DNA from: Cryobacterium breve
Lineage (GTDB): Bacteria; Actinomycetota; Actinomycetes; Actinomycetales; Microbacteriaceae
Assembly (NCBI RefSeq): GCF_004402375.1
Contig: NZ_SOGJ01000005.1
Coordinates: 62,001-126,000, forward strand
Direction of reading: 5' to 3'
DNA length: 64,000 nt
The notes beneath the pieces were generated by a model. It saw only the letters and a program-made list of their open reading frames with translations, did no database searches and had not been told where the DNA came from. Position numbers and translations under genes: made by a program. Every line of letters starts with the position of its first letter. Positions within the stretch are counted from its first letter, which is position 1. Shown here one piece after another: positions 53,611-56,172 of this stretch.

Positions 53611-53694
53611 CCTTCCCTGTCAGGGCAGCCGGCAGCCCGGCCCAATCGGTCCCTTTCTGTGGTGCGCGTCACCGGCAAGTGCCACACTCGATCC

Positions 53695-54870
53695 ATGACA
53701 GGCTCATCGCCCAAGACCCCCCGGTGCGCGATCGTACCGCCCTACCTGCTGGTGAGGCTGGCCCGGGTAGACGATCCCCGGCTCGCTGCAGCGGCTGAGG
53801 CAGCCAGGCGGTCGCTGATGCGGGACATACCGATTCGCGATCTGCGCGCTGCGGCGCATCCGTCCCCGGCCCACCCTGGCGCGCGCGGCGCGGCCGAGCC
53901 GGTTCGCGGTCGACTCGACCGGGCGGTGTCGGATGCCGGTGGCCTGGAACGCCTACCAGGGCGGTTGGTGCGCCGCGAAGGGCAGCCGCCCGGTGCGGAC
54001 CCGGCGGTGACAGAGGCCTGGGAGGGGCTCGGCTACACGCATTCACTCTTCTGGAACATGTTCGAGCGCGACTCGATCGACGACCAAGGTCTGACACTGG
54101 AGGCGACCGTGCACTATGGCCGCAACTACGACAACGCATTCTGGGACGGCGAACGCATGGTTTTCGGCGACGGCGACGGCCAAGTGTTCAACCGGTTCAC
54201 CTCCTCGTTGACGGTGATCGGGCACGAGCTCACGCACGGAGTCACCCAGTTCACGGCCAATCTCGCCTACGAGGGGCAGTCCGGTGCGATCAACGAGTCC
54301 CTGTCGGACGTGTTCGGGTCTCTGGTGGAGCAGCACAGCCGGGGACAGTCGGCCGCGGAGGCGGGCTGGCTGATCGGTGAGGGTCTGTTCACCGACCAGG
54401 TGCAGGGCGTCGCATTGCGTTCGCTCAAGGCGCCCGGCACCGCCTACAACGACGACGTGCTCGGCAAGGACCCGCAGCCGGCGCATTTGTCCGGATACAT
54501 CGAAACCGAAGATGACAACGGCGGGGTGCACCTGAACTCCGGCATCCCGAACCGGGCGTTCTACCTTGTGGCGACCGCGCTGGGCGGCAACGCCTGGGAC
54601 ACGGCCGGCCGGATCTGGTTCGACACGCTCACCTCGGGCACGCTTCCCCGCACCGTGGACTTTGCCGGGTTCGCCAGAGCGACGTCGCGGGCCGCGGTCA
54701 CGCGCTACGGCGCCGGATCGCGCGAGCACGATGCGGTCATCGCCGGGTGGAGCGCGGTCGGCCTGGGCGGCGGGCTCGGTGCCGGCTCGGTCGCCCGTTC
54801 CGGAATTCCGCCGGTACGTCCGTCCGTCTCCGGCCGCGCCGTCGTCGATCCTGGCAGTCACCCGGAGTAA
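53695..54870 (+). CDS. M4-family (protealysin-like) metalloprotease
   Basis: A 391-residue thermolysin-family zinc protease. The short propeptide has the protealysin hallmark RCAIVPPYLLVRLA near residues 9-22 and no signal peptide. The zinc site is HELTHG (177-182), with the third ligand Glu in GAINESLSDVFG; the catalytic C-terminal region HLNSGIPNRAFYL follows. Protealysin-like enzymes are synthesised without a Sec signal and act inside cells or leave by unclear routes. A tail after about 360 is low-complexity. The inhibitor gene starts 11 bases downstream. Confidence 0.92.
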   Translation: MTGSSPKTPRCAIVPPYLLVRLARVDDPRLAAAAEAARRSLMRDIPIRDLRAAAHPSPAHPGARGAAEPVRGRLDRAVSDAGGLERLPGRLVRREGQPPGADPAVTEAWEGLGYTHSLFWNMFERDSIDDQGLTLEATVHYGRNYDNAFWDGERMVFGDGDGQVFNRFTSSLTVIGHELTHGVTQFTANLAYEGQSGAINESLSDVFGSLVEQHSRGQSAAEAGWLIGEGLFTDQVQGVALRSLKAPGTAYNDDVLGKDPQPAHLSGYIETEDDNGGVHLNSGIPNRAFYLVATALGGNAWDTAGRIWFDTLTSGTLPRTVDFAGFARATSRAAVTRYGAGSREHDAVIAGWSAVGLGGGLGAGSVARSGIPPVRPSVSGRAVVDPGSHPE

Positions 54871-54880
54871 CATCGGCCCC

Positions 54881-55150
54881 ATGAAGGTCGTCGTCTCCAG
54901 AAGCGGTGGCTTCGCCGGCATCCGCACCACCTGGGAGGTTCAGGTGGATGAGCAACCCGACCGGTCGTCCTGGGCGGAACTGCTTGACGCCTTGCCGTGG
55001 GACGAGGTCTCCGAGACAGCGCCGCAGCCCGACCGGTACGTCTACCGCATCCGCTGCGCCCCGCACGAGGTCGTGCTCGGCGAGCAGCAGGTCTGCGGAC
55101 CGTGGCAAAAACTTATTGACCGGGTCAGAGGCGTGAACGACGAACTTTGA
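54881..55150 (+). CDS. Emfourin-like M4 protease inhibitor
   Basis: An 89-residue protein beginning MKVVVSRSGGFAGIRTTWEV, which matches the emfourin pattern (a short beta-rich protein with SRSGGFAGI near the N-terminus). Emfourin in Serratia is encoded beside protealysin and inhibits it. The adjacent, co-directional order 11 bases after the protease stop gives the same two-gene operon. ATG 54881 is the only start that preserves this N-terminus. Confidence 0.83.
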   Translation: MKVVVSRSGGFAGIRTTWEVQVDEQPDRSSWAELLDALPWDEVSETAPQPDRYVYRIRCAPHEVVLGEQQVCGPWQKLIDRVRGVNDEL

Positions 55151-55266: not shown

Positions 55267-56172
55267 TTGAATCGCTTGATGGCCATGGTCCTCGGCCTCC
55301 TCCTGGCGGCATTCGTTCTCAGCGCTTCGCCTGTGGCTCCTGCCTCGGCCGCGCCCGCGTCACCGGATGTGAACCAGTGCAATGGCACTGACAACGTCGG
55401 CGGCCAGGCGGTGGTGTGTGACATCACCATCACCAACAACTACGATCTGGAAGCCAACACGGCCAGTTCAATCGTGACCACCACGGAATGCCACGGTTCC
55501 GCCGGCGTTCCGCCGGATCTCACGTGCGTGACCTTGACGGAGACGTATCCTCAGCTCACACTGACCGCCACGCAGTGCAATGGATCCGGCAACGATGGCG
55601 GCTCAAACGTGATCTGCAATGTCTCGATCATCAACAACATCACTGGTTCCTTCACTGCGACGGCCGCCACCGTCAACCAGTGTGTCGAGTCCGGTACGGG
55701 CGGCGGCACCCAGCCGACAGTGGAGTGCGACCCGCTCCAGAACACCAACCTCGCCACTGCCGCGATCGTTCAGTGCAACGGCTCCGGAAATGGCGGCGGT
55801 GGCGCCGACCGGGTGAACTGCACCATCGGTTCGTCGACCCAGACTTCGGTCCTTCCGGACATCAAGGTCAATCAGTGTGTCGGTTCCGGAACCGGGGGCG
55901 GCGCAACCGTGGACTGCTCCACCCGGCTGACCAACAATGTCGTCCCCGCAGTCGTCGTCGCCCCGCCGACGGCCGTCGAGGCAACCTCGATCCCGACCGA
56001 GACGGCTTCTCCCATGGTCGCCCCGCTCGTCGCGGCTGCTCCCGAGCTCGCCGCCACCGGCACCGACTCGGCTCCACTGCTGATTTCTACCGCTGCCGGC
56101 ATCCTGCTCGTCGCTGTGGGCGCTCTCCTTGCCATGCGACGCCGGTTGACGGCATCCACCCGGACCGAGTAG
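55267..56172 (+). CDS. LAxTG-anchored Cys-rich repeat surface protein
   Basis: At least 301 residues. A signal peptide (about 8-28; VLGLLLAAFVLSASPVAPASA) leads to about five degenerate repeats of 35-50 residues, each with QCNGSGNGGG-like and C-x-(hydrophobic)-NN pieces, giving paired cysteines suited to disulphides. The C-terminus has LAATG, a hydrophobic helix and MRRR: a class E sortase signal. The TTG at 55267 has no ribosome site. The frame is open upstream to an ATC at 55213 with AAGGGGG 5 bases before it, which may be the true start (319 residues). Function unknown; possibly cell-surface adhesion. Confidence 0.82.
   Translation: MNRLMAMVLGLLLAAFVLSASPVAPASAAPASPDVNQCNGTDNVGGQAVVCDITITNNYDLEANTASSIVTTTECHGSAGVPPDLTCVTLTETYPQLTLTATQCNGSGNDGGSNVICNVSIINNITGSFTATAATVNQCVESGTGGGTQPTVECDPLQNTNLATAAIVQCNGSGNGGGGADRVNCTIGSSTQTSVLPDIKVNQCVGSGTGGGATVDCSTRLTNNVVPAVVVAPPTAVEATSIPTETASPMVAPLVAAAPELAATGTDSAPLLISTAAGILLVAVGALLAMRRRLTASTRTE

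Follow-up and report, generated by a model that had tools for sequence, protein, structure and literature searches.

Protealysin-emfourin gene pair of Cryobacterium breve and a putative PafBC-type promoter among its actinobacterial relatives

Background

Studies on the protealysin-emfourin operon (pln-m4in) reportedly include Chukhontseva (2021) and Bozin (2023). In the available part of one report on this operon (PMC9505478), RecA and FtsZ are substrates of Serratia protealysin, and emfourin is its inhibitor, binding the protease 1:1 in the region of the active site; the substrates are cut only when emfourin is missing. The same portion of that report describes reduced survival of E. coli carrying plasmid-borne protealysin, records no significant change in wild-type UV sensitivity upon deletion of operon genes and puts forward interbacterial competition as a role for protealysin. 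A second body of work concerns the DNA damage response of mycobacteria. A LexA/RecA-independent damage promoter motif, tTGTCRgtg-8 nt-TannnT, is given in the accessible text of PMC5656591, where ClgR is also reported to recognise it; PafBC acts at such promoters with the housekeeping sigma factor (accessible text of PMC11804915).

The window analysed here is a 64,000-nt stretch of Cryobacterium breve (contig NZ_SOGJ01000005.1, positions 62,001 to 126,000 of the forward strand). As in pln-m4in of Serratia proteamaculans (PMC9505478, in the part available), a gene for an intracellular-type M4 protease is followed in one operon by an emfourin-family gene. The window pair differs from pln-m4in in being actinobacterial, in having relatives with a PafBC-type promoter and in the separate -10-like box of its inhibitor gene. 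The pair itself is a new member of a known operon type; what sets it apart is a putative damage promoter, seen across many genera of actinobacteria, and a possible separate promoter for the inhibitor. Among the papers listed by searches of an open-access collection, none described a protealysin-like protease under PafBC or a promoter belonging to emfourin.

Protease and inhibitor proteins

Open reading frames at 50-59 kb of the window were listed and read by eye; the coding features of the locus are given below.

53695 to 54870, + strand: protealysin-like M4 metalloprotease, 391 aa (ATG at 53695, TAA to 54870; Pfam, PDB match and AlphaFold2)
53725 to 53751, + strand: CAIVPPYLL propeptide motif, residues 11-19, with a cysteine four residues before PP
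54223 to 54237, + strand: HELTH zinc/catalytic motif (H177, E178, H181), invariant in an alignment of 73
54295 to 54297, + strand: E201 (in NESLSD), invariant in the alignment of 73
54529 to 54531, + strand: H279 (in GGVHLNSG), invariant in the alignment of 73
54766 to 54867, + strand: protease residues 358-391, an unstructured C-terminal tail (low pLDDT)
54881 to 55150, + strand: emfourin-family M4 protease inhibitor, 89 aa (ATG at 54881, TGA to 55150; PF20242)
54899 to 54919, + strand: RSGGFAG motif, emfourin residues 7-13, the most conserved stretch of the inhibitor

The 391-aa protein has the Pfam domains Peptidase_M4_C (175 bits) and Peptidase_M4 (94 bits), both of these matches (PF02868 and PF01447) being above the cut-off. 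Its best solved relative by sequence is 2vqx, the protealysin precursor (E-value: 7e-106), which is also the top fold match of its AlphaFold2 model (pLDDT 88, pTM 0.87; TM-score 0.96 on target length), so that protealysin is the closest PDB entry in both respects. The motifs HExxH, NExxxD and the active-site histidine motif are present without exception in the 80 named loci, which are the best matches among at least 584 relatives. E201 is taken to be the third zinc ligand, by homology with thermolysin, and H279 is presumably the catalytic histidine, again by homology. No hydrophobic signal stretch is visible when the sequence is read by eye. The sequence-only reading had described a signal-less M4 protease bearing CAIVPPYLL, and this description holds for the open reading frame, its domains, the position of the motif and the lack of a visible signal. 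Residues 361-391 have pLDDT block means of 43-51; this disordered tail of approximately 30 residues distinguishes the window protease from the Serratia enzyme, and its length differs among relatives.

The residues around CAIVPPYLL appear to form a short protealysin-like propeptide with a PP motif. The Pfam search listed no propeptide family on the protease, and the model predicts two helices (residues 16-23 and 28-52) ahead of the catalytic domain. The PP is invariant in the alignment of 73. Among 79 named loci, 64 have a cysteine four residues before it, and one more has a cysteine three residues before it, as do Sphingomonas L177 and L180; the remaining 12 of 79 have no cysteine at these positions. 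A cysteine switch is a plausible role for this residue at most loci and would not be general.

The small protein has the conserved domain PF20242 (Emfourin; 46.6 bits, cut-off 27) and keeps the family invariants G9, G10 and D51 together with the near-invariants R7, G13, Y55 and L78. An emfourin-like protein had been described 3' of the protease, and this identification stands; the spacing given for it, 11 bases, is corrected to 10 nt between the protease stop and the emfourin start. As a single sequence, the window inhibitor has no PDB match. A profile of 61 relatives (actinobacterial and a few others) has one, 6zyg ('Protealysin-associated protein'; E-value: 0.0035), and the window inhibitor is far diverged from this Serratia protein, which is reached by family profile only. 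By analogy with the Serratia pair, the small protein would be expected to inhibit the window protease.

Conservation of the pair within Cryobacterium

Exactly one M4 gene is found in 56 of 57 Cryobacterium genomes. A match to the emfourin family is present in 53 of the 57, and in all 53 it lies on the same contig and strand as the M4 gene and 3' of it (compared by hand), at a distance of approximately 1.2 kb in G052. Two emfourin genes missed by the family search (G018 and G036) were recovered by tblastn, which brings the total to 55 of 57. The two other genomes are G024, in which the protease is present and no emfourin was detected, and G039 (87% complete), in which neither gene was found. 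A conserved LLM-type oxidoreductase gene is located near the protease at 17 of the 20 Cryobacterium loci examined, and the three exceptions are all members of a divergent group. In the protease tree, the nearest named row to the window protease is C. cryoconiti (95%). From these sequence comparisons, the two genes look like a vertically kept core pair of Cryobacterium.

The divergent group comprises L004, L005, L049 and L050 (genomes G025, G046, G022 and G032). In these loci the two genes overlap by 4 nt, there is neither an emfourin -10 box nor a damage motif, and none of five window neighbours is found in the three 14-kb loci examined; this copy was perhaps acquired separately. The protease of G024 (L061:6415-7479) is altered around the active site, reading HEFGHA and GALHESLAD in place of HELTHG and GA-NESLSD. 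No other Cryobacterium protease lacks a detected emfourin, its locus still has a relaxed PafBC-type site (defined below), and loss of the inhibitor may here accompany altered protease activity. Downstream of emfourin in the window, positions 55267-56172 encode a protein that, judged by eye, is putatively secreted and membrane-anchored and contains repeated NQCNGTG-type motifs; 6 of 20 Cryobacterium loci have a relative.

Fused and separate pairs in other genera

Named genomes were surveyed with an alignment of fused proteins as the query, and the best 80 of at least 584 relatives were kept, a sample that is biased to fusions. Within this sample, emfourin is present in 77 of 80 loci and forms the C-terminal domain of the protease itself in 36 of 80. 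Such fusions, a further difference from pln-m4in, occur in Intrasporangiaceae, Propionibacteriaceae, Micropruina, Agrococcus, Microbacterium, Actinotalea and Nakamurella, and separate pairs occur in Cryobacterium, Arthrobacter, Leifsonia, Streptomyces, Sphingomonas and a Chloroflexi MAG, among others. Placing the fused state on the tree requires six changes, and the well supported branches are compatible with a single origin too. At the level of the order, PF20242 was counted in at least 53 of 248 genomes, a lower bound because G013 and G050, positive in the genus search, were missed.

A natural fused mature protein (Knoellia koreensis) was modelled with AlphaFold2 from an alignment of 30 of the 36 fused loci (six were dropped because the script found no anchor). 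Its emfourin domain is well folded; as the whole-model pTM is 0.69, the model does not support docking of emfourin on the active site. At L081-L087 (families f16 and f10) the gene order is reversed, with emfourin first and protease second, and the four f16 loci of this kind for which the motif was printed have LHHVLPP in the propeptide instead of the cysteine motif.

A damage-type motif before the protease start

Most Cryobacterium loci have TGTC, 12 nt, CAGACT or CACACT, 6-7 nt and then the protease ATG. This arrangement resembles the PafBC and recA P1 promoters of mycobacteria, in which TGTCRG-N10-[T/C]ANNNT likewise stands just before the start (PMC5656591 and PMC11804915, as far as their accessible text goes). 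The motif was scored at 78 of the 80 named loci (of the other two, one has too little upstream DNA and one lacks a PP anchor). In its strict form, TGTCRGYG-N8-YANNNT, it occurs at 30 of 78 loci and under 18 of 34 genus labels; in its relaxed form, TGTCRG-N10-YANNNT, it occurs at 43 of 78 loci and under 24 of 34 labels. Both counts refer to the sample of the best 80 among at least 584 relatives, with MAGs lacking a genus counted as labels of their own. Stretches before other open reading frames of at least 150 aa in the same loci, which were found mechanically and are not all real genes, gave 0 (strict) and 3 (relaxed) of 1153; random stretches gave 1 and 2 of 1453. The match is specific to the spacing: a 10-nt spacer in the relaxed motif gives 43 of 78 named and 30 of 51 Cryobacterium loci, and every other length from 4 to 16 gives 0 or 1. 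Among the 51 distinct Cryobacterium loci, 20 have the strict motif, 30 the relaxed motif and 39 TGTC-N12-YANNNT, compared to means over 50 shuffles of 0, 0.02 and 0.46, respectively. As the loci are related, these counts are not independent, and it is better to go by how many genera have the motif.

The motif is not universal. Twelve of the 51 Cryobacterium loci lack even TGTC-N12-YANNNT, and the relaxed motif is absent from 35 of 78 named loci, including Streptomyces (7/7), Agrococcus (3/3), Leifsonia (2/2) and Sphingomonas (2/2, with upstream stretches anchored approximately 60 nt too far downstream). Unlike the mycobacterial promoters, the protease sites mostly have CANNNT, and the canonical TANNNT is found in only 12 of the 43 loci with the relaxed motif. 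At those named loci that lack the strict motif, no LexA-type box was detected in the 330 nt upstream. The seven Streptomyces loci (L163, L170, L151, L178, L166, L167 and L182) share, by eye, an upstream element of approximately AGTGACA, with TGCCAC or TGCGAC about 20 nt further on, near the ATG. In the reversed-order loci L082-L086, PafBC-like matches were rejected, as none lies upstream of the emfourin ATG and their positions fall inside the emfourin coding region.

The corresponding site of the window is as follows.

53667 to 53688, + strand: putative degenerate PafBC-type promoter, CGTCACCG-8 nt-CACACT, ending 6 nt before the protease ATG (leaderless) and in register with relatives

Here TGTCRG is represented by CGTCAC (within CGTCACCG), which departs from it at two positions (T1>C and G6>C), and the protease site of C. 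cryoconiti has the same CGTCACCG. Every motif pattern used, including that of the own-genome scan described below, missed the window site. Because this site is in register but degenerate, PafBC control appears likely for the lineage and is uncertain for the window species.

Genome-wide distribution of the motif

The pattern TGTCRG-N10-YANNNT-N5..8-RTG occurs at 23 leaderless sites in the genome from which the window derives, versus 2 sites for the reversed pattern. Some of the 23 are no doubt due to chance. Pfam scans covered 18 of the 23 downstream frames (four frames of 8-57 codons and one near-copy were left out); 13 of the 18 match a family and 5 match none. The motif shared with the PafBC and recA P1 promoters stands before repair genes: the families include RmuC, UvrB, RadA-like, SRAP, UvrD-type helicase, RecQ-type helicase, DnaX and FtsK, and in addition glutaredoxin, EamA and three DUF222 proteins (one with HNH, one just below the cut-off). 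In three relatives, picked because their protease sites match, the protease start is among 34, 47 and 42 genome-wide sites, with 3, 2 and 2 in the controls. The window genome also encodes two tandem WYL-domain proteins above the family cut-off, followed by a TatC-like gene (by eye). This order is presumably the pafBC arrangement.

The DUF222-type proteins directly behind the damage motif in the same genome are those of L228, L233 and L199. A near-identical DUF222-type gene with its damage motif is found at two contig ends (G000:C26:475-506 and G000:C34:475-506), pointing to a repeat at which the assembly was interrupted.

A -10-like box before emfourin

A second promoter-like element lies at the junction of the two genes.

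54868 to 54873, + strand: TAACAT, a -10-like box and possible leaderless emfourin promoter, overlapping the protease stop codon

TANNNT-N6..8-ATG precedes emfourin at 47 of 52 distinct Cryobacterium loci, versus 11 of 1331 ATGs on both strands of the window, and L029 is a forty-eighth locus if an ATG earlier than that chosen by the script is used. In the window, the T and A of the box are supplied by the protease stop codon. The box is nevertheless kept at 13 of 13 loci in which this stop lies at least 91 nt away, and at L062 despite an intervening lipoprotein-like gene. Among the nine loci with a 4-nt gene overlap, it lies inside the protease frame in five and is absent from the four of the divergent group. 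Its presence at nearly all Cryobacterium loci, irrespective of where the protease stop lies, points to a leaderless promoter for emfourin alone. Among the 40 separate emfourin genes of named genomes for which a start was found, 16 have the box (12 Cryobacterium, 2 of 2 Leifsonia and 2 Arthrobacter) and 24 do not.

Function of the pair

The pair is probably a latent cytosolic protease that is held by emfourin and made in greater amounts under DNA damage. In many relatives it has the same kind of on-switch as DNA repair genes, which suggests work inside the cell after damage rather than use as a weapon. The pair had also been likened to an effector/immunity module acting between cells. The adjacency of the protease and inhibitor genes and the competition idea published for Serratia (PMC9505478, available part) are in keeping with an interbacterial or host-directed effector for which emfourin would be the immunity protein, but such a function is very unlikely and fits the locus poorly. 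No signal sequence is seen by eye, occurrence in the genus is not patchy (a single M4 copy nearly everywhere), the oxidoreductase neighbour is kept, and the promoters of relatives are of the repair type. In addition, the inhibitor of the 36 fused loci would act in cis and could not serve as immunity for another cell or protect a bystander, and the comparison favours the other possibility that had been raised, a self-control module, which is in keeping with the evidence.

Two further explanations place the protease inside the producing cell. It could be a cytosolic protease that serves in stress or starvation, accompanied by its inhibitor, whose damage promoter has decayed in the window species and whose expression is driven by other signals. 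The degenerate CGTCAC, which lies outside the own-genome matches, and the Streptomyces relatives without the motif would suit this explanation, yet the window still has the -10 position at 6 nt from the ATG, and TGTC-N12-YANNNT is kept at 39 of 51 Cryobacterium loci compared to a shuffle mean of 0.46; it is considered unlikely. The pair could instead be a cell-fate module resembling a toxin and antitoxin, in which damage leads to loss or dilution of emfourin and the protease then blocks division or kills the damaged cell. This idea, which overlaps with the preferred explanation, is unlikely. A separate inhibitor promoter in Cryobacterium would resemble antitoxin excess, and the optical density of Serratia cultures drops earlier when emfourin is missing (PMC9505478, available part), but a fused inhibitor could not be depleted independently of its protease and nothing points to an unstable emfourin.

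For the preferred explanation, a guarded cytosolic protease induced by damage, the following model can be put forward. The protease would be made as a latent precursor with a short propeptide carrying the PP motif, and emfourin would restrain it 1:1. The module would lie within the LexA-independent (PafBC) DNA damage regulon of the actinobacterial lineage, such that damage would yield more of the bicistronic transcript from the leaderless promoter. In Cryobacterium, the leaderless -10 box of emfourin would allow the inhibitor to be present before the protease and in excess of it. The protease would act inside the producing cell, with RecA and FtsZ as candidate substrates by analogy with Serratia protealysin.

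Conclusions

Across Actinomycetota, the protealysin-emfourin pair may be a conserved output of the PafBC response, a possibility judged slightly short of an even chance. It would then serve as a proteolytic checkpoint: once damage has occurred, the guarded protease would cleave proteins of recombination and division, to end the response or to remove hopelessly damaged cells. If this is true, a protease with its own inhibitor would be added to a DNA damage regulon. The putative promoter, which groups the pair with uvrB, radA and recQ across many genera of actinobacteria, bears on the role of intracellular protealysins in the cells that make them.
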